Shown: in pieces, positions 3,840 through 43,790 of the stretch | Numbering within the stretch: the first letter of the stretch is position 1 | Layout of the letters: each line of letters opens with the position of its first letter | From: Brachyspira pilosicoli | Lineage (GTDB): Bacteria; Spirochaetota; Brachyspiria; Brachyspirales; Brachyspiraceae | Length of the DNA stretch: 64,000 nucleotides | Assembly (NCBI RefSeq): GCF_036997485.1 | Contig: NZ_JAWLPU010000001.1 | Coordinates: 310,001-374,000, forward strand | Reading direction: 5' to 3' | Position numbers and translations under genes: made by a program | The notes under the pieces: model-generated | Seen by the model: only the letters and a program-made list of their open reading frames with translations | Told to the model about the DNA's origin: nothing | The model's database searches: none

Positions 3840-4082
3840 TTATTTCAAATTTAGGTTATTTCTGGAGACTAGCCCCCACACCTCCACTTCTTTTATTGGT
3901 ATAAAAGAAGCAAAAGAACTGCATTTTTTTAGCCTAAAATATAGATATTATATTTTATTCATATATATTACAAACATACAAAGCTAAAACACTTGCACTT
4001 TTTGCAACTTTTTGCTGCGGGAAAAAGTTGAATAAAAAAACTTATTATATATTTGAAAACTTTTAAGTTTATCAATACCTGC
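3840..4082 (+). repeat. Dispersed two-hairpin element, copy 1
   Basis: This copy carries hairpin I at 3887-3910 (arms CTTCTTTTAT and ATAAAAGAAG) and hairpin II at 4005-4030 (arms CAACTTTTT and AAAAAGTTG around GCTGCGGG), joined by an AT-rich segment with ACTGCATTTTTT and AAACATACAAAGCTAAAACA. The same ordered parts recur near 10660, 23130, 29655 and 43140. Hairpin II faces the 3' end of the TPR gene (4087). No protein is encoded. The strand given is an arbitrary reference orientation for the family. Confidence 0.8.
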
Positions 4083-4086
4083 AAAT

Positions 4087-5454
4087 TTATTCACTATAAT
4101 CAATATTATTTTTAGTACAGAACTCTATACCCACACTGTCATTTTCTTTTGCAAGTTTTATTAAATATTTTTCAATTTTCAGTTTTAATTTATCATTAGT
4201 TATTTTGTAGGCTTTTTCAAAATAAATTAAAGCTTCATCTTTTAAGTGTTTATATTCTTCTTTTGAAATACTTTCTTTTTGAATGTTGGCAAGTATATTT
4301 TTAATGTAGCCTATACTATTAAAAGTTTCTGGTATTTCTTTTTCTAATTCTTCAACTTTACAAAAATCTTTTAAGCAGTCATTATATATTTTAACTGCTT
4401 TTTTTATATTTCCGTTATATCTTTCAATATTAGCAAGTTTAGTTTTAGCATATCCTCTAGTGTCATATATTTCAGAATTATAATTAACTATTTTAATACC
4501 CTTACTACAATACTTTATAGATTCATTTAATAATTCTTTAGCATTTAAAATATTATTATTATTTTTTAATTCAATATTTGCTAATTTAATTTTACAGAAT
4601 CCTATTTGATTATAAGCATGCATATCACTTTTGTATATTTCTATGCATTTACAAAAATCTTTAATCGCTTCCTCATATTGCTGCAAATTTATTTTAGCAT
4701 CTGCTCTATTATAATAAGCATATAAATCATTATCATCTAATTCTATAGCTTTATCATAATCCTTAATCGCTTCATCATATTGCAGTAAATTAAATTTAGC
4801 ATTTCCTCTACAAAAATAAGCTAATGAATCATCATTATTTAATTCTATAGCTTTATCATAATCTTTTATAGATTCCTCATACTGCTGTAAATTAAATTTA
4901 GCAGTTCCTCTATAAAAATAAACTAATGGATCATTATTATTTAATTCTATAGATTTATCATAATCTTTGATTGCTTCCTCATACTGATACAAATCAGCTT
5001 TAGCTTTTCCTTTATAAAAATAAGCTAATAAATCATTATTATTTAATTCTATAGCTTTGTTATAATCTTTTATAGCTTCCTCATACTGATATAAATCTGC
5101 TTTAGCATTCCCTCTATTATTATAATATTCTGGATTGCTGCTGGCTAATTCTATGGCTTTATCATAATCTTTAACCGCTTCTTCATATAACTCTAAACTA
5201 TGTTTTGATAAAGCTCTTTCAGAATAAAGAAGACAATTAGTACTATTTAATTTTATGGCTTTGTTTAAATTTGTTATAGCTTCTTCATATTGTTTTAAAT
5301 GATTTTTATTTTTACCTATAAAATAAAAAATTTCATAATTATCTTCTTGATAAAACAAAATTTTTTCAAGATATTCTATAGATAATTCAAAATTATTATT
5401 ATCAAATGCTTCTTTAGATTTACCTAATAATTCTTTAATGATATCATCAGCCAT
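4087..5454 (-). CDS. Tetratricopeptide repeat protein
   Basis: A 455-residue protein made almost entirely of tandem 34-residue TPR units, most clearly between residues 35 and 290, with the recurring pattern YEEAIKDYDKAIELNNND. There is no signal peptide or membrane segment, so it is probably cytoplasmic. Neighbouring units share near-identical codons over long stretches, suggesting recent internal duplication. TPR arrays are protein-binding scaffolds; the sequence gives no hint of the partner. The start is an ATG with AGGAAT upstream. A dispersed hairpin element begins right after its stop codon. Confidence 0.9.
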   Translation of the reverse strand: MADDIIKELLGKSKEAFDNNNFELSIEYLEKILFYQEDNYEIFYFIGKNKNHLKQYEEAITNLNKAIKLNSTNCLLYSERALSKHSLELYEEAVKDYDKAIELASSNPEYYNNRGNAKADLYQYEEAIKDYNKAIELNNNDLLAYFYKGKAKADLYQYEEAIKDYDKSIELNNNDPLVYFYRGTAKFNLQQYEESIKDYDKAIELNNDDSLAYFCRGNAKFNLLQYDEAIKDYDKAIELDDNDLYAYYNRADAKINLQQYEEAIKDFCKCIEIYKSDMHAYNQIGFCKIKLANIELKNNNNILNAKELLNESIKYCSKGIKIVNYNSEIYDTRGYAKTKLANIERYNGNIKKAVKIYNDCLKDFCKVEELEKEIPETFNSIGYIKNILANIQKESISKEEYKHLKDEALIYFEKAYKITNDKLKLKIEKYLIKLAKENDSVGIEFCTKNNIDYSE

Positions 5455-5499
5455 ATTTTAATATTCCTATATAATTTTAGTTATCATATTATATATTAT

Positions 5500-5835
5500 A
5501 ATAAAAATTATCAAATACTATCTTTTACCTAGTTATGTGCGTGGTGAGTATGCTACAAATTTAAAAAAATCTTGGGTGGGCAGCTAGAATAACAGATTAA
5601 GTTCAAAAAAAATTAAACTATAATACTATAAAAAATAAAAAGCCTAGAGGGTAGGCAAGTGTAATTAAATTTTAAAACTTAATTTGCATTCCCCGCTCTT
5701 TATTCTCTATAATTACATTTTAAATTTTCATATTAACTATCTTTATAGCTCACTTAGAAATTTAAGCACCCGCCCAAGCATTAATTAAGTTTAGAATTTC
5801 TATAGCGTATGTTTAACAAAATTTCAAATATATTA
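5500..5835. repeat. Second dispersed intergenic family, copy 1
   Basis: This gap between the TPR gene and apt has no credible gene. It contains a GTGCGTGG box near 5535, a TCTTGGGTGGGC box near 5570, a CCCGC-containing stretch near 5690 and CACCCGCCCAAGC near 5770. Similar boxes occur in the gaps at 14860-15175 and 58045-58262. This copy is the most degenerate; its outer limits are approximate. Confidence 0.45.
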
Positions 5836-5868
5836 AAATTATAAATAATTTGTTTTTTTATTTTGTAA

Positions 5869-5896
5869 TTGATTTTTTTATAAAACTTAATATAAT
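5869..5896 (+). promoter_or_regulatory. Predicted sigma-70 promoter of apt
   Basis: A -35 box TTGATT (5869-5874) and a perfect -10 box TATAAT (5891-5896) are separated by 16 bases, 37 bases upstream of the apt start codon. Read from sequence only. Confidence 0.6.
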
Positions 5897-5933
5897 TATA
5901 TGCTGTGAGTTTTAAAACAATTAGGAGTAATTT

Positions 5934-6446
5934 ATGGATTTAAAAAATTACATAAGAAACATACAAGATTATCCTAAAGAGGGTATATTATTTAGAGATA
6001 TCACAACCTTATTAAAAGATAAAGATGCTTTTAAGTTTGCAATAGACTCTATGGCTAAACAAGTTGAAGATAAAAAAATAGATTATATAGTAGGAGCTGA
6101 GAGCAGAGGATTTTTAATAGGTTCTGCTTTGGCTTATAGATTAAACTGCGGGTTTGTACCTGTTAGAAAGAAAGGTAAATTGCCTTGCAAAACTATATCA
6201 GAAGAATATGCATTAGAGTATGGTACAGATGCTTTATATATGCATGAAGATGCTATAAATAAAGGAGCTAATGTGCTTATAGTGGATGATTTAATTGCTA
6301 CAGGAGGCACTGCTTTGGCTATGATGAAAATGGTTGAAAGACTTGGAGGCAATATAGTTGGTTCTTCTTTTTTAATAGAACTAAAAGAATTAAATGGAAG
6401 AAAAGATATAATCAAATATCCTGTTAATGTTTTAATAGAATATTAA
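5934..6446 (+). CDS. apt: Adenine phosphoribosyltransferase
   Basis: A 170-residue enzyme of usual length that converts adenine plus PRPP to AMP and pyrophosphate (purine salvage, cytoplasm). The start MDLKNYIRNIQDYPKEGILF is typical of Apt, and the PRPP-binding loop VLIVDDLIATGGTA lies at residues 114-127. The ATG follows TTAGGAG. The gene is single, with its own promoter and a hairpin terminator shared with the convergent solute-binding gene. It fits with the nucleoside hydrolases at 46471 and 53145, whose action on adenosine would release adenine. Confidence 0.96.
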   Translation: MDLKNYIRNIQDYPKEGILFRDITTLLKDKDAFKFAIDSMAKQVEDKKIDYIVGAESRGFLIGSALAYRLNCGFVPVRKKGKLPCKTISEEYALEYGTDALYMHEDAINKGANVLIVDDLIATGGTALAMMKMVERLGGNIVGSSFLIELKELNGRKDIIKYPVNVLIEY

Positions 6447-6464
6447 ACTTTTTTATTAAAAAAA

Positions 6465-6504
6465 TAAAGAATAGGAATTATAATATAACTCCTATTCTTT
6501 TTTA
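6465..6504. terminator. Bidirectional hairpin terminator
   Basis: The arms AAAGAATAGGAATT and AACTCCTATTCTTT pair with one mismatch and are flanked by A-rich and T-rich tracts. It lies between the convergent apt and solute-binding genes and can serve both. Confidence 0.75.
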
Positions 6505-6528
6505 TTGCATATTTTTTATTTACAAAAT

Positions 6529-8130
6529 TTATTTAGCTAATTGAGCATAATAAAACTTGTGAGCACCAAGAGGGTCAAATATAACGCCAGATAATTTTTT
6601 GCTAATCATTATAGGGTCAGTATAGAAATAAAGAGGGATTAACCCCATATCATTCATAAGTATATCTTCTGCCTCATGCATAGCTTTCATTCTTACATCT
6701 TGGTCTATAGTAGACATAGCAAGTTTTAATTTATCGTCATAATTTTTATTAGAATAACCGCCATTGTTTTGTACACTATAGCTTAAAAATACCCCAAGGA
6801 AACTCATAGGGTCATTATAATCAGCTATCCAACCATGGCGAGCAATCATATAGTTTTTATTTTGTCTAGTATCTTGGAAAGTAGCCCATTCTTCTTGAGC
6901 TATAGTAGAATCTATATTTAAATTCTCTTTCCACATCTGCTGTACTGCTTCAAATATTTGTATATGTTCACCAGAGTTAGATTTAAACTCTATTACAGGA
7001 AAATTATTTCCGTTTTCATATCCAGCCTCAGCAAGGAGTTTCTTAGCCTCTTCTACATTTTTTTGATAATCATCTGGCTTTACACTATAATAATCTCCGC
7101 CAACCTTTCTAAACTCTCCATTAACATCACTAACACCATTAGGCACCCAAGCACTTGCTGGAAGCTGTCCTGCTCTTGTAACCTGCTCTACTAAATAATT
7201 TCTATCTATTGCTAAAGTTAAAGCCTTTCTTACTCTAACATCTTTCAATACACTATTTGTAATATTAATACAATAGTAATATGTACCTAAATATGGTGAT
7301 ATATGCATTAAACCTTCGTTTTGTAATGTTTCTATATCTTGAAGCGGAGGATTGTTTGCAAAATGTATAGAACCCTCTTTTATACCAGCCACAGCAGCTG
7401 TACCGTTTTGCATAAGTATAAATACCAATTTTTCTGGTATAATATTTTGACTATTCCAATAATTAGTATTTTTTACCATTACAAGTCTGTCATCTGTTCT
7501 TCTTTCTACCAAAGTAAAAGGACCATTTCCTATATATGTATCTGGTGAAAGAGTCCAATTATCTTTATTTTCCTCTATTATATCTTTTCTTACAGGGTAA
7601 AATGTAGGAAAAGCAGCAAGCTCTAAGAAATAAGCAGTAGGAGCATTTAATGTTACTTCGAGAGTGTTTTCATCTATAGCTTTAATTCCTAAATCTTCAA
7701 CAGGTTTTTTACCAGAATTGATATCCATAGCATTTAATACAGGCTCAAACTGATAAGCATATTCTGAAGCTGTAATTGGATCAACGGCTCTCTGCCAAGA
7801 ATAAACAAAGTCTTCAGCTGTAATTTTTTTACCGTCAGACCATTTAGCATTTTCTCTTATATGAAATGTATAGGTTAAACCATCTTCACTTATATCCCAA
7901 CTTTCTGCAACGCCAGGTATTATTTTATTTTCTTTATCTCTAGTAGCTAAACCTTCAAAAGCATGCTGAATATATATACTTCCGTCTACTGTAGAGTTTA
8001 ATGCCGGGTCTATAGTTTTTGGTTCCGGACCTACATTAATATATATTGCTCCTTCATCTGTTTTATTGCCGCCGCAAGAAATTGATACGAGCATCAAAAC
8101 AGATAAGAGTAATAGAGTAAAATGTTTCAT
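6529..8130 (-). CDS. oppA: Oligopeptide-type ABC transporter substrate-binding lipoprotein
   Basis: A 533-residue family 5 extracellular solute-binding protein. The signal peptide ends in a lipobox, LVSISC with Cys19, so the mature protein is lipid-anchored. INVGPEPKTIDPALNST, GLATRDKENKIIPGVAESW and YTFHIRENAKWSDGKKITA are the standard N-terminal signature of OppA/DppA proteins. It captures peptides in the periplasm for an ABC importer. No permease or ATPase gene is adjacent, so it must work with a transporter encoded elsewhere. The start has TAGGAGAA upstream. The ligand cannot be told from sequence, so the oppA symbol is a family label. Confidence 0.9.
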   Translation of the reverse strand: MKHFTLLLLSVLMLVSISCGGNKTDEGAIYINVGPEPKTIDPALNSTVDGSIYIQHAFEGLATRDKENKIIPGVAESWDISEDGLTYTFHIRENAKWSDGKKITAEDFVYSWQRAVDPITASEYAYQFEPVLNAMDINSGKKPVEDLGIKAIDENTLEVTLNAPTAYFLELAAFPTFYPVRKDIIEENKDNWTLSPDTYIGNGPFTLVERRTDDRLVMVKNTNYWNSQNIIPEKLVFILMQNGTAAVAGIKEGSIHFANNPPLQDIETLQNEGLMHISPYLGTYYYCINITNSVLKDVRVRKALTLAIDRNYLVEQVTRAGQLPASAWVPNGVSDVNGEFRKVGGDYYSVKPDDYQKNVEEAKKLLAEAGYENGNNFPVIEFKSNSGEHIQIFEAVQQMWKENLNIDSTIAQEEWATFQDTRQNKNYMIARHGWIADYNDPMSFLGVFLSYSVQNNGGYSNKNYDDKLKLAMSTIDQDVRMKAMHEAEDILMNDMGLIPLYFYTDPIMISKKLSGVIFDPLGAHKFYYAQLAK

Positions 8131-8249
8131 AATATCATATTCTCCTATTTTTTTTATTGCTGCTATTATATTTTGTATAAGGATATTGTCAATTAATATT
8201 TATGAAATAATTTTTTTAGGAGTATTAGTTTTATAAATAATATATCTTT

Positions 8250-9302
8250 TTATAAAGACTCTAATATATCATTAATGCTTATTTTATTTATTAAAGGCTT
8301 TTCTATATCTTCTAAGAACACAAAATTAATTTCATCATTACTTCTTTTTTTATCTAATTTAATTGCATCTTTTAAGTTAATGTTGTTTGGTATTGCAGTT
8401 GGGAGAGAAAATTTATCAAATATATTTTTTGCTCTCTCAAATAAACTTTTATTTTTAGTAATGCCTTTTTTTATTCCATACTCTATAGCAAAAATCACAC
8501 CTATAGCAACGGCCTCACCATGAAGCAAAACACCATAACCAGCAGCATTTTCTACACTATGCCCAATAGTATGACCAAAGTTTAAAAACATTCTCTCTTT
8601 TTTTTCTTTATAATCAATCTCTACTATATGCCCTTTCAATTCGCAGTTTCTCTTAAGAATAAAATCCATATCAAAACTATTATTATTTTCTAAATATTCT
8701 AAAAGTTTTTTATCAAACAAAAATGCATGCTTAATAACTTCAGCCATACCCGCATTAAACTCTCTCTTTGGAAGCGTATTTAAAACATCACTATCCATTA
8801 TAACAAGTTTAGGGCTATGAAAAGCGCCAACTAAATTTTTACCTTCTTTAATGTTAATGCCAGTCTTTCCGCCCACAGAAGAATCAACGCATGCAAGAAG
8901 TGTTGTAGGTATCTGAACAAAATCAATTCCCCTCATCCAAGTAGCAGCAGCATACCCAGCCATATCACCTATAACACCGCCTCCTAATGCTATTACTATA
9001 TCTTTTCTGCTTAACTCATTTTTTGCAAAAGCTGAATATATATTATAAATGCTCTCTATATTTTTGTTAGTCTCTCCATTTTCAAGCACACATACAGAAG
9101 TGATAATATTTTCTTTCTCTAAACTTTTTTTCACTATTTCAGTATAGAGTTTATCAACTATGTCATCAGTAACTATTAAAGCCCTTTTTCCTCTAAGAAC
9201 TTCTTTTACCAATTTACCACTTTCTTTTATAAGTCCGCTGCTCACTAAAATATCATAATTTATTTTTGCATCGTTATTTATATTTATATTAACTTTATTC
9301 AT
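8250..9302 (-). CDS. aroB: 3-dehydroquinate synthase
   Basis: A 350-residue AroB, second step of the shikimate pathway: it cyclises DAHP to 3-dehydroquinate with NAD+ and a divalent metal. The NAD-binding and active-site region ALGGGVIGDMAGYAAATW, then IPTTLLACVDSSVGGKTGIN, is intact, as are the metal-binding histidines in NFGHTIGHSVE and HGEAVAIG. Length is close to the family norm. The ATG follows AGGG. It stands between the solute-binding gene and a DUF3800 gene; no other aro gene is in the window. Confidence 0.95.
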   Translation of the reverse strand: MNKVNININNDAKINYDILVSSGLIKESGKLVKEVLRGKRALIVTDDIVDKLYTEIVKKSLEKENIITSVCVLENGETNKNIESIYNIYSAFAKNELSRKDIVIALGGGVIGDMAGYAAATWMRGIDFVQIPTTLLACVDSSVGGKTGINIKEGKNLVGAFHSPKLVIMDSDVLNTLPKREFNAGMAEVIKHAFLFDKKLLEYLENNNSFDMDFILKRNCELKGHIVEIDYKEKKERMFLNFGHTIGHSVENAAGYGVLLHGEAVAIGVIFAIEYGIKKGITKNKSLFERAKNIFDKFSLPTAIPNNINLKDAIKLDKKRSNDEINFVFLEDIEKPLINKISINDILESL

Positions 9303-9400
9303 ATATAAGCCCTAATTTATTTTTTTAGTATTATAAATTATTTTTAAAAAATATATAATATCTTTATTAAGAAATAATAAAATACAAATAAAATATTAAT

Positions 9401-10534
9401 TTATTTCTTTAAAAAAAAATTAAATTTTTTAGATATATTATTAATATCTAAATGATTTTTGGAATTAAATCCTACAACATTTAACAACTTATTAAAAGTT
9501 ATTATATCTTCATTTAAATGAATATAAAGTTTAAGGTTCATTACAATAAATTTTGCAAACTCTTTAACATTTTCATCTACGATATTATTTATAATTTTTG
9601 AATAAGTTATAGATACATAACCACATAACAAATCTGCAAGCTGAATCAATATTTCATTTTTTGAATCTATAGCTTCAAAATTATTTAACTTTTTAAATCC
9701 CCATTCAATATCTGTATTTTTATCTACTTTTATTTTAGAATGTTTTCCTATATTCCATATACTTTTTATATAATTAAATAGTTCATCATATCCATAGAGT
9801 TTATCATAATAAATAGATAAGTCAGGGTCTGACTCATTATCAGAATACAAATATTTACTAACATATGAAAATATTGAATTTATTGTAGGTGTCATTATAC
9901 TATTTAAAAATTTTATAGTCCCATTATCATCAAATTCATCTTGTATTTCCATCAATCCTTTGTCATCTATGCTTGATATAGAATCTGAAATAGAACTTAA
10001 TTCTGAACGAAATAATTTTATTAATTTTTCTTTTATAAAAATAATATTATCAGTATTCGTACATTCTTTACTTTTTATGAGATTAGAAAAATCATAAAGA
10101 ATATTGTCATTATCATTTAATAATATATATGAAGCTAACTCTTTTTTTAATTCTGTAGGAGAATATAATTTGGAATATAGAATAGAACTATTTAATGATT
10201 TATTATAATTAGGATCAAAAAAAGTGTCTATTATTTTAGATGCTATCAAAAACTTTTTATTTACAATACCAAAAAAAGGTATAGCTTTATATACATTAAT
10301 CATTTGATGAAAAATAAAAATAAATTCTTTATAGTTATTATCATTTTTCAAAATTTTTGATTTTAATTCTGCAATATTATTTTTTCTTATTTTATGTCTA
10401 CTTATATATTTTCTTATTTGATCTTTTTTTTTTGAATTTATTAACCAACCTCCATAAATAAAATAAGGCTGATCGTTATTAAACCAGTCAGCATGTGTAT
10501 TACCCGATTCATCTAAATACAATTCAAATTCCAT
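9401..10534 (-). CDS. DUF3800 domain protein
   Basis: A 377-residue protein that starts MEFELYLDESGN and ends its conserved core with IQLADLLCGYVS near residue 295. The N-terminal DESG (D8, E9) and the late QLADLL are the two landmarks of DUF3800, predicted to have an RNase H-like fold with acidic catalytic residues. The first 60 residues (IYGGWLIN) also fit. The middle is Asn/Ser/Ile-rich and diverged. DUF3800 proteins are often found in mobile or defence contexts, but nothing else here supports that. The ATG follows GAGGT. Confidence 0.75.
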   Translation of the reverse strand: MEFELYLDESGNTHADWFNNDQPYFIYGGWLINSKKKDQIRKYISRHKIRKNNIAELKSKILKNDNNYKEFIFIFHQMINVYKAIPFFGIVNKKFLIASKIIDTFFDPNYNKSLNSSILYSKLYSPTELKKELASYILLNDNDNILYDFSNLIKSKECTNTDNIIFIKEKLIKLFRSELSSISDSISSIDDKGLMEIQDEFDDNGTIKFLNSIMTPTINSIFSYVSKYLYSDNESDPDLSIYYDKLYGYDELFNYIKSIWNIGKHSKIKVDKNTDIEWGFKKLNNFEAIDSKNEILIQLADLLCGYVSITYSKIINNIVDENVKEFAKFIVMNLKLYIHLNEDIITFNKLLNVVGFNSKNHLDINNISKKFNFFLKK

Positions 10535-10659
10535 AATTTAAAACCTCATAATTAGTAATATTACAAACAACGATATGTCATATTTTATTTATATTGCACT
10601 TAATATTTACATATAGAATAATTTTTAGTTTAAAAAAATCAAGTATTATTATAATTTAA

Positions 10660-10745
10660 ATTAATAAAGTTAAAACATTTGCACTTTTGGTTCTTTGACG
10701 AAGTCCGCAAAGCGAAGGCGGGAAAAAGTTGAATAAAACAAAAAC
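10660..10745 (+). repeat. Dispersed two-hairpin element, copy 2 (partial)
   Basis: Only the hairpin II half is present: TTAAAACATTTGCACTTTTGG followed by a longer hairpin at about 10689-10731 whose loop contains GACGAAGTCCGC and ends GGCGGGAAAAAGTT. The left arm begins like the GTTCTTT version and the right arm ends like the AAAAAGTTG version, so the stem is imperfect here. It abuts the 3' end of the minus-strand gene that ends at 10764. Confidence 0.65.
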
Positions 10746-10763
10746 TTATATTACAAAATATAG

Positions 10764-11171
10764 TTATTTAGATATATCAACGTCTTCTTTTGCTTTTACT
10801 TTTTTGTATCTTATCCACCTTCTGCCTTGTATGTAATGCATAAACTTGATTAATCTTATAAGAGAATCTTTAAAATTATCATTAGAGTTTTGTTTCTGTA
10901 TTTTAGCTATTTCAAATATGCATCTCTCTCCATCTATATTAAGCCAAGCGGATGTGCATAGTTCATCGAATTCTATATCTTTATTGGGTTTCTTTTTTAA
11001 AAGCCAAGCTGCTATTTTTGTAATGGGGTTATTAACATCAAATATTAAAAGCACTTTTCCATTATCATTTACTTTCCAATTAGTGTGTATAATCTCTGGA
11101 ACATACAATACAAAATTATGCTTATCTTCTTCTTTTAAGAAATTGTCTAATGAAAATCTATTATCTTTCAT
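10764..11171 (-). CDS. Conserved-looking small protein of unknown function
   Basis: A 135-residue soluble, mixed-charge protein without signal peptide or membrane segment. It has an ATG with AGGAT upstream. The order of features is a charged N-terminus, a beta-rich stretch (HNFVLYVPEIIHTNWKVN, KVLLIFDVNN), a Trp/Lys-rich middle (AAWLLKKKPNKD), a second beta stretch (AWLNIDGERCIFEIAKIQ), a helix, and a basic Trp-containing tail (GRRWIRYKKVKAK). I recognise no family. It is separated by about 95 bases from the OPT transporter gene upstream on the same strand. Confidence 0.6.
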   Translation of the reverse strand: MKDNRFSLDNFLKEEDKHNFVLYVPEIIHTNWKVNDNGKVLLIFDVNNPITKIAAWLLKKKPNKDIEFDELCTSAWLNIDGERCIFEIAKIQKQNSNDNFKDSLIRLIKFMHYIQGRRWIRYKKVKAKEDVDISK

Positions 11172-11217
11172 TTATTAAAAAATCCTATAAATTATATAAA
11201 TAAATTTTTATAAAATA

Positions 11218-11249
11218 ATGGGCTTAGCTCATATAATTGCCAAGCCCAT
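11218..11249 (-). terminator. Hairpin terminator of the OPT transporter gene
   Basis: The arms ATGGGCTT and AAGCCCAT form a stem 19 bases after the stop codon of the minus-strand transporter gene, followed on the minus strand by a T-rich stretch. Confidence 0.65.
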
Positions 11250-11267
11250 ATCATTTATTTAAAAATA

Positions 11268-23129: not shown

Positions 23130-23400
23130 TATATATCTAATTATATTTTGTAGTTTTTGTTTTACTCAACTTTTTCCCGCCGCAAAAAGTTGCAAAAAAT
23201 GCATATACCATAGTTAATATCTTATGAATATATATAAAATAATACTTGTATTTTAAGCTAAACAATGCAGTTCTTCGCGAAGCGTATCCAAAGGATATAA
23301 GGTTCTTTTATACCAATAAAAGAACTGGGGGTGTGTACCCTAAGGGCACGTTTCGCAGTGGTAAGCCTACCACAAATAAAAAACTAAAAATATGTTTTTT
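23130..23400 (-). repeat. Dispersed two-hairpin element, copy 3
   Basis: Same element as at 3840-4082 in reverse orientation. Hairpin II is at 23168-23192 (CAACTTTTT, AAAAAGTTG) and hairpin I at 23302-23325 (GTTCTTTTAT, ATAAAAGAAC), followed by GGGGGTGTGTACCCTAAGGG and CACGTTTCGCAGTGG. Hairpin II faces the 3' end of the DUF4132 gene, whose stop codon is about 50 bases away. Open frames across it are low-quality and read through the repeat boxes. Confidence 0.8.
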
Positions 23401-23423
23401 AACAAACTTAAAAACTTATTTAA

Positions 23424-23462
23424 TAAAAAAAGATAGCACTAATATAAGCACTATCTTTTATA
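23424..23462. terminator. Hairpin terminator at the 3' end of the symporter gene
   Basis: AAAAAGATAG and CTATCTTTT form the stem, with flanking A and T tracts on either side so it can act on both strands. It lies 24 bases downstream of the minus-strand symporter stop codon. Confidence 0.65.
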
Positions 23463-29654: not shown

Positions 29655-30062
29655 ATATTTTCTATCAATTTTTTCTTGTTCTTTTTCCCGCAGCAAAAAG
29701 AACCAAAAAGTGCAAGTGCTATATCTTTTTATATTTGTAATATGTATTAAGTATAAAATAATACATTTATTTTAAGCTAAACAATGCAGTTCTTTTGCTT
29801 CTTTGCGGCACGCCTTACCTAAAGGTACTCCTTTCAGTCGCCGGCACTCCTTTCAGTCGCAAAAGAAGTAGGGGCATGTACCCTAAGGGCACGCTTCGCA
29901 GGGGGCAACGCCACCACAAACAAGAAATTTTTAGTATATAATTAAACAATTATGTTTTATTATTATAAGTATTTGTTTTTGTTCAACTTTTTTGTCGCTC
30001 TCGCTGTGCGGATTTCGTAAGGTTTTCAGCATTCGCATATATTTTATGAAAGTGCAAATGTT
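29655..30062 (-). repeat. Dispersed two-hairpin element, copy 4 with expanded loop
   Basis: Reverse orientation. Hairpin II lies at 29678-29703 (GTTCTTTTT and AAAAAGAAC around CCCGCAGC). The region of hairpin I (about 29790-29872) is expanded by an insertion containing the direct repeat ACTCCTTTCAGTCGC, twice. GGGGCATGTACCCTAAGGGC and ACGCTTCGCAGGG follow. A second, partial copy in the same orientation (CAACTTTTTTGTCGC, then GTGCAAATGTTTTAAC) fills 29985-30062. The first copy faces the 3' end of mnmA. The gap separates two convergent genes and holds no credible CDS. Confidence 0.8.
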
Positions 30063-35317: not shown

Positions 35318-35324
35318 TCAATTT

Positions 35325-36206: not shown

Positions 36207-36376
36207 ATTATTCTCCAAAAAACTTTAATTAATTATAATAAATAGTTGCAGTTTTTCAAGTAAAATGAAAAAAAATGTATTTTTTTTAGTTTTCTTATAC
36301 ATCTAATTTATTTTTATAAAAAAAATCCGATAAAGATATGTAGTATTATTATATTAAACCTATACAAAATTAATAC

Positions 36377-36405
36377 TTGACTAATGGGTTAAATATTATT
36401 ATACT
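36377..36405 (+). promoter_or_regulatory. Predicted sigma-70 promoter of the outer-membrane-type protein gene
   Basis: TTGACT (36377-36382), 17-base spacer, TATACT (36400-36405). The start codon lies 34 bases downstream of the -10 box. Confidence 0.65.
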
Positions 36406-36439
36406 TTAAAAATAGGTAACTAGTATTTTTAGGAGACTA

Positions 36440-37090
36440 ATGATGAAAAAACTAATTTTAGTAATCTTTTTAGTGAGTTTTAGTACGCTTTTTCCAGCAT
36501 TTGAAGTTGATGTTATAGGTCAGCTTAGTGCTGTAACAGGATTTCCAATTTTGGACTCTCAAACTGTAAAAATTAATGGTTCAACAGAAGTAAGACCAGA
36601 ACTTTCCGCTCAAATAGGTTATATGCTTCCTATGCAAAACGGATTAAAAGGTATAAGTCTTTTAGGTGATGTTATGATAGAACAAAGTACCATAGGTATT
36701 ACTTATCCTGGAGACAAAAAAATAGTTAATAAAGAAAGCGGATTAAGTATGGGTTTAGGTTTTACAACTAAATTTGTAATCGGTAATGTTAATAGTTTAA
36801 TTCCTAGAGATACTGTTTTAGGTGTTGGAGTTGCTGCTAAGGCTTTAATATATGCTCCAAATATAGTACTTACTATGACTCCGCCTCCTATAAGTATTTA
36901 TCTCAAAACTTTTGTAGAACAAAGATTTTTCATATCAAGACAATTAGCTTTTGTCGTAGGACTTAATTTATATTTAGATTATATGCTTCCTATGACTTAT
37001 AAAGTTGATCAATTGTTTATGGGTTATTTTGTAACTAGTTATCTTGATTTAGGTATAGGTCTTAGCGTAGGACTTCACTTCGGAAATTAA
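36440..37090 (+). CDS. Outer-membrane beta-barrel-type protein
   Basis: A 216-residue protein with a signal peptide (MMKKLILVIFLVSFSTLFPA) and a beta-rich body: alternating hydrophobic strands such as LSAQIGYMLPMQNGLKGIS, SGLSMGLGFTTKFVIGNV, AFVVGLNLYLDYMLPM and YLDLGIGLSVGLHFGN. The terminal strand ends in a hydrophobic residue pattern and N rather than F. I infer an outer-membrane barrel of about eight strands, of the kind common in this group; no family is recognised with certainty. Either of two adjacent ATGs can serve with the AGGAG site. Own promoter and terminator. Confidence 0.65.
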   Translation: MMKKLILVIFLVSFSTLFPAFEVDVIGQLSAVTGFPILDSQTVKINGSTEVRPELSAQIGYMLPMQNGLKGISLLGDVMIEQSTIGITYPGDKKIVNKESGLSMGLGFTTKFVIGNVNSLIPRDTVLGVGVAAKALIYAPNIVLTMTPPPISIYLKTFVEQRFFISRQLAFVVGLNLYLDYMLPMTYKVDQLFMGYFVTSYLDLGIGLSVGLHFGN

Positions 37091-37110
37091 TTTTTATTAT
37101 AAATATATTT

Positions 37111-37147
37111 TAGGAGCTATTAAAAAATTAATAGCTCCTTATTTATT
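37111..37147 (+). terminator. Strong intrinsic terminator
   Basis: The stem AGGAGCTATTAA / TTAATAGCTCCT is perfect and is followed after a few bases by a T tract. Confidence 0.85.
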
Positions 37148-37247
37148 TTTTTTGATAATATATTATAATTCTATCTATTAATACTATAAATTTCTTTTTA
37201 TGATTTATTTTCAATTTGGTTAATAATTATATATTGGGGAGAGAATA

Positions 37248-38201
37248 TTGAAAAAAAAGATTTTCCTTATTTTATCTGTATTCATTTTTTACAGTAATAT
37301 TTTATTTAATGATGTAGTTAATAGCATAGTTGGAGTTGTTGGTTCTATTCCTATTACTTATGAGGATTTTGTAAGCAGGAAGTCTTTTTTATCTCTTCAG
37401 GCTAGATCTATTGGTAAAAAAATTAATGATGATATGGTTTATAAGGATTTAGTTGAAGAGAGGATAATGTATTTAAAGCTTAAAGAATATAATTATGTTA
37501 TAGAAGAAAATGATGTTAACAGAAGACTCGAAAATATTGCAAGTCAATATAATCTTACCTTAGACCAATTTGCAAAGCAATTAAAATCTGAAGGCATATC
37601 TTATGAAGAGTACCGCAATTCTATAAAAAAACAAATAGCTATGGAAAATTTGAGCGGGCTTGTTGTTAATAACACAGAAATTACCGATGCAGAAGCTGAT
37701 GAGTATTATAATAACAGTAAAGATAAAACAGCTTTTGAAGTAGATACCTTAGTAAAACTTTCTTGGATATTTTTCAAAGCTACAACATTCACAGAAAAAG
37801 GTGAAAAACAAGAGTTAGCTGATAGAGTTAGAGGAATGGCAGCAAGAGGCAATGATTTTGCTGAGTTAGCTAAAAAATATAGCGATGATGAAAAAACAAA
37901 AAATTATGGCGGAGATTTGGGGTATAATCTTTTATATGATGCAGGAAAACGTTCTTTGCCTGCACAGGTAAATGCTGGGCTTACTTTGGCAAAAAGAGGA
38001 TATAAAGTAGGAACTGTAAGTTCAGTGCGTGAATTAGTTGGCAAGGGCTTTTATATAGTAAAAATAGTAGAAATACAAAAAGATATGGATAGTATTCGTA
38101 CAAGAGTAAAAAACTATCTAAGCGAGATTCGTATGAGAGATTCTTTTGTAAAATGGCTTGATGATGAAACTAAAAGAGTTACTATAAAGTTATATAAATA
38201 G
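37248..38201 (+). CDS. SurA-like periplasmic peptidyl-prolyl isomerase/chaperone
   Basis: A 317-residue protein with a TTG start 7 bases after GGGGAGAG. Signal peptide to about residue 20. Residues 25-140 form a SurA N-domain (VVNSIVGVVGSIPITYEDFV, LVEERIMYLKLKEYNYVIEE). A parvulin-type domain follows: ADRVRGMAARGNDFAELAKK, YSDDEKTKNYGGDLGY and a C-terminal strand FYIVKIVEI. It should help fold outer-membrane proteins, which fits its place beside an outer-membrane-type gene. The rplU promoter begins right after its stop. Confidence 0.88.
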   Translation: MKKKIFLILSVFIFYSNILFNDVVNSIVGVVGSIPITYEDFVSRKSFLSLQARSIGKKINDDMVYKDLVEERIMYLKLKEYNYVIEENDVNRRLENIASQYNLTLDQFAKQLKSEGISYEEYRNSIKKQIAMENLSGLVVNNTEITDAEADEYYNNSKDKTAFEVDTLVKLSWIFFKATTFTEKGEKQELADRVRGMAARGNDFAELAKKYSDDEKTKNYGGDLGYNLLYDAGKRSLPAQVNAGLTLAKRGYKVGTVSSVRELVGKGFYIVKIVEIQKDMDSIRTRVKNYLSEIRMRDSFVKWLDDETKRVTIKLYK

Positions 38202-38203
38202 TG

Positions 38204-38232
38204 TTGACAGAATTGTAAAAATATAGTATAAT
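38204..38232 (+). promoter_or_regulatory. Predicted strong promoter of rplU-prp-rpmA
   Basis: TTGACA (38204-38209), 17-base spacer, TATAAT (38227-38232): a perfect sigma-70 consensus. The rplU start is 57 bases downstream of the -10 box. Confidence 0.8.
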
Positions 38233-38288
38233 ATATTACTCATGTAATAGTATAAATTTAAAATTAATATAAATGGAGAAAAACCATC

Positions 38289-38603
38289 ATGTATGCAATA
38301 GTAGAAGTAAAGGGAAAACAATACAAAATAGAAAAAGGTCAAGATATCTTAATAGAATATTTGGGCGATGATGCTAAAGAATCACCAGAAATAAAAACGC
38401 TCCTTCTAAAAAAAGATGATGAAAGCGTAGTTGTTGGAACTCCTTATGTAAATGGAGTAAAAATAATCTCTAAAATAGTTGAAAGCTTAAAAGGTGATAA
38501 AGTAGTTATAGGAAAACACAAAAGAAGAAAAGACTACAAAAGAAAAACAGGTCATAGACATAAATATCATAAAATCACTATAGAAGATATTACATTAGCT
38601 TAA
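38289..38603 (+). CDS. rplU: 50S ribosomal protein L21
   Basis: A 104-residue L21 of normal length, a 23S rRNA-binding protein of the large subunit. MYAIVEVKGKQYKIEKGQDI is the diagnostic start and KVVIGKHKRRKDYKRKTGHR the basic tail. The ATG has TGGAG upstream. It heads the classical rplU-prp-rpmA order, driven by a consensus promoter. Confidence 0.98.
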   Translation: MYAIVEVKGKQYKIEKGQDILIEYLGDDAKESPEIKTLLLKKDDESVVVGTPYVNGVKIISKIVESLKGDKVVIGKHKRRKDYKRKTGHRHKYHKITIEDITLA

Positions 38604-38610
38604 GTTTATA

Positions 38611-38967
38611 ATGTCTTCTTTATTCAGTGTTGTTTATAATAGTGATGGTGTTATAATAAAGGTTACTATAGAAGGACATGCTGGAATAAAAAAGTCTGGT
38701 GAAGGTTATGAGGTATGTATAGCTTTGAGTGCGTTATCTCAGGCTATGCTCAATACTCTTACTGAAATAGTTGGAAGCAAGAGTATTAAACATAAAATTA
38801 ATGATGGATATTTAAGCTTTGAATTGATTGGTTTTGATAAACTTAATAAAGAAAAAGCTTATGAGTATATTACAGTTAGTAGAGGATATTTACTAGGTAT
38901 AAAATCTCTTATTAAAGAGTATCCCGACTACATAAAATATAAAGAGGAGTTAAAAAATGGCACATAA
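38611..38967 (+). CDS. prp: Ribosomal-processing cysteine protease Prp family
   Basis: A 118-residue protein of the DUF464/YsxB family. The catalytic pair is visible as the His of IEGHAGIK and the Cys of [14 protein letters not shown]. In Firmicutes and others Prp removes an N-terminal extension of L27 during ribosome assembly. Here it lies between rplU and rpmA as expected, but the adjacent L27 has no extension to cut (see findings). Its last 11 bases overlap the rpmA start. Confidence 0.88.
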
Positions 38968-39211
38968 AAAAGGCGGCGGAAGTTCAAAAAATGGACGTGA
39001 CAGTCAATCTAAACGTTTAGGTGTAAAAGTTTATGGTGGAGAAAAGGTTGTATCTGGTAACATTATAGTTAGACAAAGAGGTACACAATTCCATGTTGGT
39101 AAAAATGTTGATATAGGTAGAGACCATACTATTTTTGCAACTGCTAATGGTGTTGTTAAATTCCACACTAATAAGTTTGGTAAAAAAACTATAAGTGTAA
39201 TAGCTGAATAA
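38957..39211 (+). CDS. rpmA: 50S ribosomal protein L27
   Basis: An 84-residue L27: [20 protein letters not shown], then [28 protein letters not shown] and [13 protein letters not shown]. The start is ATG 38957 with GAGGAG upstream. An in-frame stop codon (TAA) lies just two codons before that ATG, so no longer N-terminus is possible. L27 contacts the peptidyl-transferase centre through its N-terminus, so the mature-type start matters. Overlaps prp by 11 bases. Confidence 0.98.
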
Positions 39212-39241
39212 TATTATACACTAAAATATATTATTTTTATT

Positions 39242-39278
39242 AATATCCTATTCTTATTTAAGAGTGGGATATTTTTGT
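39242..39278 (+). terminator. Intrinsic terminator of rplU-prp-rpmA
   Basis: AATATCCTATTCTT pairs with AAGAGTGGGATATT, imperfectly, around a short loop and is followed by T residues. Confidence 0.7.
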
Positions 39279-39315
39279 TTATTTGTTATATTTAAACCAA
39301 GAGGATAATTATTTT

Positions 39316-39720
39316 ATGAGAATATTATTTATAGCTTTAGGGTTTATATTTCTTGGAATAGGTGCTGTCGGTATAGCTGTGCCAATTTTGCCCACTACCC
39401 CTTTTTTGCTTTTAGCTTCATTTTTCTTCGCAAAAGGCTCTAAAAGGTTTCATGATTGGTTCTTATCTACAAAATTATACAAAAAATATTTAGAGAGCTT
39501 TGTAAAATCAAGAGCCATGACTCTAAAAGGAAAATTAACTATACTTATACCTGTAAGCTGCATGCTTATAATTACATTTATTTTAGTAGATAATATATAT
39601 GCTCGTATAGTTTTAGTGATATTATTCATTTCAAAATATGTTTATTTCTTCACGCAAATAAGAACTGTTTCAGAGGAAGAGCTAAGTAAGATGAGAATAA
39701 GCTATCAAGAAGAGCAGTGA
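39316..39720 (+). CDS. DUF454 (YbaN-type) inner-membrane protein
   Basis: A 134-residue membrane protein. ATG 39316 is chosen because GGFIF-type sequence starts directly after it and AGAGGA lies upstream; an in-frame TTG at 39283 would add an unlikely NQEDNY tail. LGFIFLGIGAVGIAVPILPT and TPFLLLASFFFAKGSKRFHD are the family signature, and two more hydrophobic segments follow (LIPVSCMLIITFILV; IVLVILFISKYVYF). Function unknown. It is convergent with the RND pump gene and shares a bidirectional terminator. Confidence 0.85.
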   Translation: MRILFIALGFIFLGIGAVGIAVPILPTTPFLLLASFFFAKGSKRFHDWFLSTKLYKKYLESFVKSRAMTLKGKLTILIPVSCMLIITFILVDNIYARIVLVILFISKYVYFFTQIRTVSEEELSKMRISYQEEQ

Positions 39721-39805
39721 TTTTTTGATATGCAATAAAAATTAGTATGCAGTAAAAATTTGTAAATTATAAAATATTAATTAAAAGCTATGTTAATATA
39801 CAAAA

Positions 39806-39838
39806 GGCTTTATTTATAAAACAACATAAATAAAGCCT
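39806..39838. terminator. Bidirectional hairpin terminator
   Basis: A perfect 12-base stem, GGCTTTATTTAT and ATAAATAAAGCC, with an AT loop, flanked by A and T tracts between convergent genes. Confidence 0.85.
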
Positions 39839-39886
39839 CAAAAATAAAATAAGCATTTATAAAAAATTATAATTCGTAAAAAATTA

Positions 39887-42800
39887 TTATTTACCTGTTA
39901 CTGTTATAGTATCATAATTAGAAAAGTCATTTCTGCTTTCTAAATCTTTTTTCTCATAATCTTTTAGAGGTATTTTATTTCTTATAGCAGCATAAACTGT
40001 AGGAACTATTATCAAAGTAAACATAGTTGAAAGTAAAAGCCCTCCTAACACAGCAATAGATAAAGGCTGATACATTTCATTTCCGCTTCCTCCAGATAAT
40101 GCCATAGGTAAAAGCCCTAATATTGTTGTAAGTGTTGTCATTAGCACTGGTCTTAAACGCCTAGGTCCAGATTCTAAAGCAGCCTCATCGCCATTAATAT
40201 GTTTTTCATGCATAAGCTGATTCATATAGTCTATAAGCACAATTCCATTATTTACTACGATACCAATAAGCACTATAAAACCTATACCGCTATACACGCT
40301 TAATGTTTGCCCGCTTATAAACAATGCTATCAAAGAACCAGCAAAACCAAATGGAATTGCTAATGCTATAACAAAAGGTGCGATAAGCGATTCAAATTGA
40401 CTTGCCATTATTGCATAAACTAAAACTAATGCTAATATCAAAGCCTGAACTAACTGTAAAAATGCTTCATTCATATCCTCAAAATCTCCTGCATAATTAA
40501 TACTAAATCCTGAAGGTATAAATACTTCATTTTTTATTTTTTCTTGAACATCAAACATTACATCGCTTAAGGCTCTATTATAAGCAGAAGCTTTTATGCT
40601 TGTTATTCTTGTGCTGTCTTTTCTATCTATCTCTGTAGGTCCGTAACTTTTCTCTATAGTTGCTATTGAGGATATAGGCACTATTCCTGCTGTTGTAGGT
40701 ATCATTAATCTTGATATATCATCTATGTTAAGTCTATCAGGTTCTCCAAGCTGAACATTAACATCTATATCTGTAACATCAGAATTGTTCGGTGTCATAG
40801 TTGTTGCTGCTGTACCTGCGAAACTTGTTTTAATAATATTTGCTATGGTGTTTACATTGACACCCATTTTTGCCGCTATCTCTCTATTAACATATACTTT
40901 CAATTCTGGGTTTGAATCATCTCTTGTAAGTCTTGGCTCTCTTATTCCTTCTATATCAGATATTGCATTTATTATATTGTTTGCTATTTCTGTGGCTTTA
41001 TCCAAATCATCGCCTACAAGCTCTATTTCAATTTCTTGTCCGCCTGTGCCACCATTTCTGCCTCCGCTGCCTATACCTGAAGTATTTATTGATGCTATAT
41101 TTATTTGAGCAGGATAAGATGCTAATACATTTCTTGTAAGCTCTATATATTCATCTACTGACTTTTCTCTGCCTTCGCTTTTATCTCTTAACTGCACTCT
41201 TATTTCAGCAGAGTTCTCTTCTGAACCAGATTTTACTCTTGACTGCATTCTGTCAAAATCTTTACCTATTACTTCTTGTATATCTACTTCCATTCTATTT
41301 ACAAAAGACTGAGTTTGTGCTGACTTTGTACCTACTGGCATTTTTACATCTATCTTAAATTGTCCTTCATCTGAAGTTGGAAAACCTTCCTTTCCAATAA
41401 ATGTTAAGCCTAATACTATTACAGCAAGTATCACACTTAAAGAAGAAATCAAAACTTTCTTTTTATTTTTTATAGAAAAGTTAAGCATAAAAGAGTATAT
41501 ATTATTAACCCTATCGTGAAATTGTTTATTGACAAAATTTTCTATAGGTATTAAAAATTTAGTTTTTTTATTCGTTACAAGTCTAGCCCCAAGCATAGGA
41601 ACAACTGTAAGAGCAACAAATAAAGAGCCTATCATTGAAACTGTTACAGTAATACATAAATCTTTGAAAAGCTGCCCAGTCTGTCCTTCAACAAAAAGAA
41701 AAGGCAAAAATACTGCTATTGTTGTAAGTGTTGAAGCTGATATTGCTAATGCCACTGCGGAAGTTCCGTTTATAGCAGAAGAATATTTTCCGTATCCGCT
41801 ATTTCGATAATAAAATATATTTTCAAGCACTACAATAGAGTTATCAACCATCATACCAATTCCGAGTACAAGTCCAGACAATGAAATAATATTTAAAGTA
41901 ATTCCCATAAAATACATTAATGTAAATGTAATGATTATTGATGTGGGTATTGATATTGCTATTATAGAAACAGTTTTTATATTCCACAAATAAAACATAA
42001 GTATTATAACAGCAAACAAACCTCCCTGCCAAGCTGTTTCTAATACTCCGTTTATAGATTCATTTACATTGTCAGCACTATTGAATAATATTTCATATTT
42101 TATGCCTTCTGGAAGATTCAAATTTTCTAATTGTTTTTTTACGGATTTTGATACATTAACAGAGTTTCCTCCAGATTCTTTATTAACAGAAACTGATATT
42201 GCAGGCATTCCATTTATTTTTACTATCTCAGAATCATCACTATATCCCTGATAAACTCTTCCTATATCTTTTAATTTTATAGGCGTGTCATTAGTTTTTA
42301 ATACCACCACAGTGTTTTCAATATCTTCTACAGTTGTAAACTCACCCATTGTTCTTATATTATATTTATAAACCCCTTCATAGGTATCTCCTCCTGATAG
42401 GTTTTGATTTTCTGATGACAAAAGAGAAACTATGCTGTTAATATCCAAACCATAAGCATGAAGACGGTTTAAAACTAAATCTACTTTCATTTCTGTTTTA
42501 AGTCCGCCTCTAATTTCTGCTCTTGCCACTCCCGATGCTTGCTCTATTTTGTTTAATACTTGATTGTCTATTAAAGTATATAATGCCCCTAAATTATCAG
42601 TGCCAAAAAATGCTATCGCCATTACAGGCATCATATCTGTAGAAAATTTAAATACTGTAGGGCTTTCAGCATCATCTGGAAGAGAGTTTTTTATTCTATC
42701 TATTGCCTCTCTTATATCAGCAGTTGCAACGGCTAAATCTGTACCCCAATTAAACTCTATAAATACGCTTGACTGACCTTCTTCTGAAGTAGAAGTTATC

Positions 42801-43039
42801 GAATTAATGCCGCTAACTGTAGCAACTGCATTTTCAACGACTTTAGTTACTGATTTTTCTACCTCTTCAGGTCCTGCATTCTCGTACTCTGTACTTACTG
42901 TAATATAGGGAAGCTCCATATTAGGTAAGAAATCTACTGCTAATTTTGTTAAGCTTACAAAACCTAATATTAATACCGCTACTATACACATAAAAACAGC
43001 TACAGGTCTTTTTACTACTAACTCTATAAAACTCCTCAT
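39887..43039 (-). CDS. RND efflux pump inner-membrane subunit (HAE1 type)
   Basis: A 1050-residue AcrB-type proton-driven exporter. ATG 43039 is used: AAGGAG lies five bases upstream, and the in-frame GTG at 43045 overlaps that site. RPVAVFMCIVAVLILGFVSL is the first membrane segment; LVLGIGMMVDNSIVVLENIF in TM4 carries the proton-relay Asp, and GGNSVNVSKSVKKQL, GFIVLIGIVVNNGIVLIDYM and LRPVLMTTLTTILGLLPMAL match the family. The Gly-rich GSGGRNGGTGG near residue 660 is a surface loop. No membrane-fusion or TolC gene is adjacent, so partners must be encoded elsewhere. Substrates unknown. Confidence 0.93.
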   Translation of the reverse strand: MRSFIELVVKRPVAVFMCIVAVLILGFVSLTKLAVDFLPNMELPYITVSTEYENAGPEEVEKSVTKVVENAVATVSGINSITSTSEEGQSSVFIEFNWGTDLAVATADIREAIDRIKNSLPDDAESPTVFKFSTDMMPVMAIAFFGTDNLGALYTLIDNQVLNKIEQASGVARAEIRGGLKTEMKVDLVLNRLHAYGLDINSIVSLLSSENQNLSGGDTYEGVYKYNIRTMGEFTTVEDIENTVVVLKTNDTPIKLKDIGRVYQGYSDDSEIVKINGMPAISVSVNKESGGNSVNVSKSVKKQLENLNLPEGIKYEILFNSADNVNESINGVLETAWQGGLFAVIILMFYLWNIKTVSIIAISIPTSIIITFTLMYFMGITLNIISLSGLVLGIGMMVDNSIVVLENIFYYRNSGYGKYSSAINGTSAVALAISASTLTTIAVFLPFLFVEGQTGQLFKDLCITVTVSMIGSLFVALTVVPMLGARLVTNKKTKFLIPIENFVNKQFHDRVNNIYSFMLNFSIKNKKKVLISSLSVILAVIVLGLTFIGKEGFPTSDEGQFKIDVKMPVGTKSAQTQSFVNRMEVDIQEVIGKDFDRMQSRVKSGSEENSAEIRVQLRDKSEGREKSVDEYIELTRNVLASYPAQINIASINTSGIGSGGRNGGTGGQEIEIELVGDDLDKATEIANNIINAISDIEGIREPRLTRDDSNPELKVYVNREIAAKMGVNVNTIANIIKTSFAGTAATTMTPNNSDVTDIDVNVQLGEPDRLNIDDISRLMIPTTAGIVPISSIATIEKSYGPTEIDRKDSTRITSIKASAYNRALSDVMFDVQEKIKNEVFIPSGFSINYAGDFEDMNEAFLQLVQALILALVLVYAIMASQFESLIAPFVIALAIPFGFAGSLIALFISGQTLSVYSGIGFIVLIGIVVNNGIVLIDYMNQLMHEKHINGDEAALESGPRRLRPVLMTTLTTILGLLPMALSGGSGNEMYQPLSIAVLGGLLLSTMFTLIIVPTVYAAIRNKIPLKDYEKKDLESRNDFSNYDTITVTGK

Positions 43040-43139
43040 TCGCACTCCTTCTTATATAGTATGTATATATATATTGTTGTATAATTTTAGACGAATAAGG
43101 TTATAAAAAAGTTTTAAATTAAGTTATGTATTAGGGTGT

Positions 43140-43790
43140 ATTTATATAATTTTTTATTAAGATTTTTTAGCTAAAACATAGACATTATCTTACACTTTAT
43201 ACATATTCCAAACATACAAAGCTAAAGCACTTGCACTTTTTGGTTCTTTGACGAAGTCCGCACAGCGTAAGCTGCGGGAAAAAGAACAAGAAAAAAATTG
43301 TTTTAACATACACTAAAAATTTTAAGTCTGTAAAAATTCAGTTTTTATATTTTTATTGCTTGCGGGGACTAGCCACCCTGCGAAGCGTGCCCATAGGGTA
43401 GCCCCCCAACTTCTTTTGGTGACCCAAAGAAGCAAAAGGACTGCATTGTTTAGCTTAAAATGTTAGTATTATAATATAGTTTACACATATTCCAACATAT
43501 AAAGTAAAAACATTTGCATTTTTTGCAACTTTTTGCGGCGGGAAAAAGTTGATAGAAAATTATGGTTTTATTTATTCTAAAATTTTTTAAGTTTTTTTAT
43601 TTTGGTTATTTGCAGGGCTTTGCCCCGCACCCCAGTTCTTTTGTCGCCACAAAGAACCAAAAAGGCTGCATTTTTTATGCTTAAAATAAATGTATTATTT
43701 TAAATTTTATATATATTCAAAAACATACTAAGCTAAAATATTTGCAGTTTTTGTAATGAGAAAAAGAACAACAAAAAAATTGACAACAAA
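43140..43790 (+). repeat. Dispersed two-hairpin elements, tandem array (copy 5)
   Basis: This 750-base gap holds no gene. It contains at least three units in the same orientation: hairpin II at 43243-43287 (GTTCTTT and AAAGAAC, expanded loop), hairpin I at 43410-43432 (CTTCTTT and AAAGAAG), hairpin II at 43526-43551 (CAACTTTTT and AAAAAGTTG), hairpin I at 43635-43657 (GTTCTTTTG and CAAAGAAC) and a degenerate hairpin II near 43748-43770. CACCCTGCGAAGCGTGCCC and GGGTAGCCCCCC boxes are also shared with copies 3 and 4. The last unit abuts the 3' end of the radical SAM gene. Confidence 0.8.

Follow-up and report, generated by a model that had tools for sequence, protein, structure and literature searches.

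One of the known elements closest in form to the repeat described here is RUP of Streptococcus pneumoniae, a short, AT-rich miniature inverted-repeat transposable element (MITE) with IS630-like terminal inverted repeats (TIRs) and a TA target, found between genes in high copy number (PMC2229807, PMC3049150). BOX, from the same species, is modular and variable in length (67-637 bp), and has TIRs, duplications and a predicted folded transcript (PMC3049150). The Correia/NEMIS elements of Neisseria combine TIRs with terminal TA, putative promoters and a stem-loop transcript, and in the CIR elements of Caulobacter and Brucella a linker connects two hairpin arms, with a GANTC motif near a loop (PMC2229807; all as given in the parts of these papers that we consulted). 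Here we describe a hairpin repeat, MITE-B, that recurs in a stretch of 64,000 nucleotides of the Brachyspira pilosicoli genome (the window, G000:C1:310001-374000; host genome 2.72 Mb, 28% GC). One window protein has its best named relatives on Brachyspira MAG contigs, at 80-84%, and on this ground the genus of the genomes compared is taken as Brachyspira.

MITE-B resembles RUP in each of the traits above. However, RUP is simple and ~107 bp long, whereas MITE-B is mostly 163-443 bp and carries three exchangeable hairpin modules; moreover, the only parent copy seen for MITE-B is broken and belongs to a different genome. It is modular like BOX but shares a cassette with a second, unrelated MITE family. 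Compared with the putative promoters of Correia/NEMIS, its outward TTGACA-17-TATA is no more than a consensus match. CIR, its GANTC motif apart, recalls a first-pass annotation of this window, which had reported five intergenic loci with two hairpins whose stems change in pairs, and had proposed either a structured RNA or a non-autonomous mobile element. The likenesses to BOX, Correia/NEMIS and CIR are by description only. Thus an IS630-type MITE, a modular MITE, putative promoters and a two-armed fold are all already known singly, at least from the sections covered of these sources. No account of a covarying hairpin cassette in two unrelated MITE families was met in searches of the open PMC library, which leaves subscription papers uncovered, and the covered part of a report on Brachyspira insertion sequences and rearrangements (PMC3532143) holds no hairpin repeat of this kind. 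With MITE-B, one prominent group of palindromic repeats between Brachyspira genes gains defined ends and a transposon origin.

Structure and distribution of MITE-B

The repeat is very probably a MITE of the IS630 (Tc1/mariner) type, its copies mostly old and mosaic. In all likelihood a full element reads TIR-B - HPIII - HPI - A/T spacer - HPII - TIR-B, spans ~300 bp and occupies TA-rich targets, where HPI and HPII are hairpins I and II and HPIII is a GC-rich third hairpin. As read from 30 genomic copies plus copies in C1:1-854000, the units follow the order HPIII, HPI, a TGCA tail, an A/T spacer, AAGCTAAAAC..TTGCAC and HPII; they are frequently in tandem, and their loops hold small palindromic inserts. 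The ordered set of parts proposed in the first-pass annotation indeed recurs across the genome, and every HPI and HPII stem it had quoted was found in place, including the swap of HPI arms between 43410 and 43635. It had missed HPIII (GGGGACTAGCCCC or GGGGCTTTGCCCC), which lies 5' of HPI, and its two-hairpin description fails at one of the five loci, that at 10660, which lacks HPI and has mismatched HPII arms.

The recurrence is clearly beyond chance. The HPII pattern occurs at four places in the window and in none of 100 shuffles. In the whole of its own genome the HPI tail pattern (up to one mismatch) gave 90 matches and strict CAAC-type HPII occurred at 57 places, the reversed-pattern control giving 0 in both cases. 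Of the 26 genus genomes, 23 contain the tail pattern, each with between 2 and 142 matches. HPII likewise has 23 carriers, out of 31 genomes compared across the order, and every carrier belongs to the genus; it is absent from G001, G003 (88% complete), G019 and five genomes of other genera.

Searching 98 loci together with stretches totalling 2.45 Mb yielded 49 TIR-B pairs, some overlapping or sharing ends (92 distinct ends, not 98); in related genomes such ends enclose the ordered parts described above. Two end types, with consensus TACCTAAACAACTATATTTTGTCAA and TACTGAAAATTTTTAAGTTTGTCAA, combine as 1-1, 1-2 and 2-2. TA is present at both flanks in 40/49 pairs (background TA 0.13). Most pairs (42) span 163-443 bp, six span 477-892 bp and one spans 1,052 bp; at least one hairpin module was flagged, by loose tests, in 37 of the 42 under 450 bp.

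The 1,052-bp pair (L329, in G015) is bounded by TIR-B2 (1 mismatch) and TIR-B1 (3 mismatches) with TA flanks, and encloses a broken IS630-type transposase gene (DDE_3, E 4.8e-10, and, for one fragment, PF13358, 9.4e-8, both over cut-off; NF033545, 1.7e-8, below cut-off). Searches for PF01609 and PF13358 in six genomes gave one match each, L328 in G018 and L329 in G015, and among the IS630-model scores listed G015 reached 57.9 bits, all others staying under 27 bits. Because the ends of MITE-B match those of this decayed IS630-family transposon, the element was probably mobilised in trans by an IS630-type transposase.

Between the units, a sigma-70-like TTGACA...TATACT had been considered as the promoter of an RNA gene; it is a TIR-B end instead. 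TTGACA-17-TATA points outward from TIR-B, for example at C1:588193, and 17/92 ends match at least five of six positions in both hexamers. Judged from these matches, TIR-B insertions may create promoters, as proposed for Correia elements. Some TIR-B ends enclose an alternative interior, in which a palindromic CCGCACGG...CGTGCGG replaces the hairpin cassette (G9:359597, G7:308376 and G11:79187, as positions in joined stretches).

Filled and empty sites

Comparison of relatives revealed sites occupied in one genome and empty in another. In its own genome, sites filled with hairpin units measured 395, 251 and 283 bp against 12, 26 and 62 bp in a relative. G9 and G7 each carry one insertion that is empty in the other (483 vs 9 bp for G9; 427 vs 18 bp for G7), and three sites are filled in G16 and empty in G11 (493 vs 3, 284 vs 1 and 184 vs 4 bp). 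The two genome comparisons gave 9 and 16 indel rows, five being hairpin insertions and the remainder genes, tandem repeats or overlapping reports. The insert in G9 consists of two abutting TIR-B units, the 184-bp insert in G16 is bounded by TIR-A (see below), and that in G7 has, by eye, clear inverted repeats at its ends. Since filled and empty versions of a site imply insertion, the repeat is mobile; together with the TIRs, the TA flanks and the decayed parent, this supports well the earlier proposal of a non-autonomous mobile element. Copies of MITE-B also nest within one another and probably recombine into tandem composites.

G009 and G007 further differ in intergenic tandem arrays of pentanucleotides (GTGTT and GGCTT units), near G9 228276 and G7 160236 in the joined stretches.

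A second MITE family carries the HPIII-HPI cassette

A different end, TIR-A (AGACTTGTTTCAAAACTA), bounds 20 pairs that define MITE-A. Identical 3-bp flanks occur in 16/20 (AAT or ATT in 15, TCT in 1), and HPI was flagged in 17/20, a share biased by the fact that L152, L154 and L158 were fetched by the HPI pattern. TIR-A pattern matches are present in 23/26 genomes, with 206 in G006. At one locus, L337, an IS5-type transposase remnant ends right before TIR-A (PF01609, 7.4e-20, over cut-off; NF033581, 4.1e-28, below cut-off), and weaker transposase remnants adjoin TIR-A-like ends at L338 and L339. The presence of HPIII-HPI in both MITE-A and MITE-B means that the cassette is common to two unrelated backbones, which differ in their ends and likely in their transposases. 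Most simply, it would have reached both by nested insertion and recombination. At L284, MITE-B is nested inside MITE-A at a TA run, and at G16:168500 a cassette-bearing MITE-A copy splits a palindrome, in our reading a terminator, that is left unbroken in G11. A cassette housed in both IS630-type and IS5-type MITEs offers a clean test of structure selection against drift in MITE interiors.

In viral contigs, seven exact TIR-A matches had no partner TIR or cassette nearby within the mismatches allowed and were taken as chance; one HPI pattern gave 0 matches. An integrase-like open reading frame (ORF) in L337 and 59 weak IS630-model matches in G012, many in open frames of ~315 aa, suggest an abundant insertion sequence of another family.

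Pairing in the three stems

The first-pass annotation had read the paired changes in HPI and HPII as a sign that the fold itself is selected. Outer pairs were tested in 93 cassette rows by parsers that need a common arm core (5 rows gave no HPI, 31 fell in no HPIII class, and the 20 rows of HPIII class Z, misread out of register, were excluded), against column shuffles, which leave relatedness and recombination in place. The HPI outer pair was G-C in 43 rows, C-G in 43 and unpaired in 2 (n=88); the shuffle mean was 43.5 paired, and 86 was reached in 0/2000. Among 67 distinct HPI copies, 56 were perfect across all seven pairs and pair 1 was C-G in 34 and G-C in 25, with pairs 2-7 near invariant, a figure that underestimates variation since the filter wanted 9/12 common bases there. 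Both pair-1 states occur in several loop subfamilies (11 vs 9, 3 vs 4 and 1 vs 4), so the flip occurred more than once. At one orthologous site, HPI loops differ by ~48 nt with the stem unchanged.

HPIII behaved similarly at its outer positions. In class X (32 rows), pair 1 was Watson-Crick in 30 and pair 2 in 26, neither reached in 2000 shuffles, with C-G, T-A and A-T variants at pair 1 and G-C and T-A at pair 2; pair 3 was paired in 23/32, not above shuffles. Class Y (10 rows) gave 10/10 for pair 1 (23/2000 shuffles), 9/10 for pair 2 (2/2000) and 2/10 for pair 3. A.C positions, found in 24/32 class X rows, would become G.U on the complementary RNA.

HPII is different. Its arms were CAA/TTG in 50 of 102 copies, GTT/AAC in 35 and GTA/TAC in 1, with 13 unpaired hybrids and 3 others. 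Hybrids are rarer, by copy or by distinct sequence, than the 45-50% expected of independent arms, and by copy they are concentrated in long loops (11/42 vs 2/56 in short-loop copies, p=0.0017). Two haplotypes with hybrids between them suggest block exchange rather than strict fold selection, and of the three stems only HPII is touched by the earlier caveat that stem differences might reflect two subfamilies. A wider caution follows: where dispersed repeats show paired changes in their stems, whole hairpin blocks may have been exchanged. Such exchange may be part of what keeps the stems complementary; for the HPI outer pair and HPIII, pairing is also restored after change, whether through correction of one arm from the other in a DNA hairpin or through selection acting on the strand once folded. 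A pseudoknot between the HPI loop and the tail was searched for by eye and none was found.

Weighing the alternatives

Several observations weigh against an IS630-type origin as drawn above. The association of HPII hybrids with long loops is not significant by distinct sequence (11/38 vs 2/19, p=0.18). None of the window copies has an intact TIR pair, and their ends match TIR-B at 3-6 edits with TA mostly absent; only 3 of the 49 TIR-B pairs lie in the examined 854 kb of the genome itself. Clear TIRs stand at both ends in just 3 of the five inserts between relatives. The parent is known from a single broken copy, in one other genome, and the IS630 model NF033545 passed its cut-off in none of 26 genomes, some match being present in 24. 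The exact length of the TA duplication is blurred by TA runs, with TATATA at 52/92 junctions. For MITE-A, a left TIR-A was looked for in L337 and not found.

As to how the stems stay complementary, mutation alone, through template switching between the arms of a DNA hairpin or slippage between duplicated arms, has a chance only somewhat short of even. Indeed, HPI and HPII are each flanked by a direct repeat of one arm (AAAAGAAS C AAAAGAAC; CACTTTTTG CAACTTTTT), and imperfect HPI stems are commoner in long-loop copies (9/43 vs 2/66 in short-loop copies, p=0.006). However, recombination between copies gives the same loop-length effect, and the effects in both HPII and HPI fit recombination inside the loop.

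We regard it as rather unlikely that the repeat is a structured non-coding RNA family or a 3'-end RNA element, with the fold under selection and mobility incidental. The covariation of the outer pairs of HPI and of HPIII class X, far above column shuffles, supports the earlier claim of a selected fold in part, and it is joined by the HPI stem kept at the orthologous site, the carriage of the cassette by two unrelated backbones and the G.U pairs expected on the complementary strand. Against this, the shuffles retain relatedness and recombination, HPI pairs 2-7 hardly vary (allowing for the filter), HPIII pair 3 shows no covariation, and HPII has two haplotypes with 13/102 unpaired hybrids. Folding of 43355-43565, a single copy, was only mildly low in energy (z -2.0 for one strand, -2.2 for the other). 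An Rfam scan of the whole window matched 16S rRNA alone, a scan of 43100-43800 gave only sub-threshold matches, and the HPI count spans 0 to 142 within a single genus. A variant, to which we give a similarly small share of belief, is that HPIII-HPI is a functional, fold-selected module that insulates or processes RNA, perhaps on the strand opposite to HPI, and that two unrelated MITE families captured it because it lets them sit harmlessly behind genes. Both selection on the fold and an RNA role for it are putative.

Placement among genes bears on a further possibility, that the units are bidirectional transcription terminators spread by duplication. With simple ORFs of at least 90 aa as gene calls, 68 clusters divided into 36 tandem, 21 convergent and 9 divergent intergenic clusters and 2 inside ORFs. 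Convergent regions are in excess (21/66 vs 13-14% expected; p 2e-4 by length, 1e-4 by count), as such terminators would predict, and divergent ones in deficit (p=0.004 by length, 0.13 by count). However, promoter avoidance accounts for the bias equally well, the upstream stop is the nearer one for just 22/36 tandem clusters, no intrinsic terminator was called in 43000-43950, the sole stretch scanned, and inspection by eye showed no run of T after the stems; we therefore consider terminators improbable. We read the bias as tolerance of insertions behind genes, with MITE-B copies accumulating between convergent genes because they are probably least harmful there.

Finally, REP/BIME-like elements, mobilised through recognition of DNA hairpins by a Y1 transposase (RAYT or IS200/IS605), would likewise be intergenic, palindromic and arrayed as tandem mosaics, but we rejected this origin as scarcely credible, since Y1_Tnp (PF01797) is unmatched in all 26 genus genomes (a positive control matched 5/14 known genomes) and TIRs with target duplications are DDE-type features.

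Copies in the window

The window copies of MITE-B are worn mosaics (Table 1). At the 43140 locus the hairpins are as the first-pass annotation had quoted them; the locus is in fact a tandem composite, which holds an extra HPII at 43243-43287 and, near 43740-43770, the worn remains of another.

Table 1. Hairpins and TIR-B-like ends of the repeat in the window (window coordinates)
Feature	Position	Strand	Basis
TIR-B1-like left end, worn (TACTG...TTTTGTCAA)	3808..3834	+	by eye; weak, absent from 7-edit search
HPIII, worn, 3840 copy	3862..3879	+	sequence by eye; family alignment
HPI, CTTCTTTT/AAAAGAAG (CTTC/GAAG)	3887..3910	+	sequence
HPI tail AAAAGAACTGCA, after HPI of 3840 copy	3912-3923	+	sequence
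HPII, CAACTTTTT/AAAAAGTTG (CAAC/GTTG)	4005..4030	+	sequence, pattern match
TIR-B2-like end, fused or truncated	4050..4075	+	4 edits
HPII hybrid, long loop, outer arms unpaired (GTTC against GTTG)	10690..10731	+	sequence
TIR-B1 right end, then TA	10751..10774	-	3 edits
HPII, CAAC/GTTG type	23167..23192	-	sequence, pattern match
HPI, GTTC/GAAC type	23302..23325	-	sequence
TIR-B2-like end, no TA after	23399..23425	-	5 edits
HPII, GTTC/GAAC type	29678..29703	-	sequence, pattern match
HPI, CTTC/GAAG type; small palindromes inserted in its 55-nt loop	29798..29868	-	sequence
TIR-B1-like end, worn, between tandem units	29937..29962	+	20-nt core with up to 5 mismatches at C1 339943; absent from later edit search
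HPII, GTTC/GAAC, long loop	43243..43287	+	sequence
TIR-B2-like end	43311..43334	+	5 edits
HPIII with GC-rich insert	43361..43408	+	sequence
HPI, CTTC/GAAG	43410..43432	+	sequence
HPII, CAAC/GTTG	43526..43551	+	sequence, pattern match
TIR-B2-like end, worn	43575..43599	+	6 edits
HPIII, GCAGGGC TTT GCCCCGC type	43612..43628	+	sequence, family alignment
HPI, GTTC/GAAC	43635..43657	+	sequence
HPII remnant, worn	43739..43770	+	by eye; anchor listed without hairpin

Other features of the window

The 16S rRNA gene lies at window 58400-59912; 23S rRNA is unmatched in the window, and no tRNA gene was found in the 64 kb. Compared with G011 and with G016, a 9.7-kb segment (C1:340061-349726) is inverted, with one breakpoint at the element at window 29740-30061 and the other in an intergenic region (39726-39838) without an obvious element. 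Two orthologues in G011 (L175 and L200) contain in-frame stops despite 86% and 95% identity, which suggests assembly errors or recent decay.

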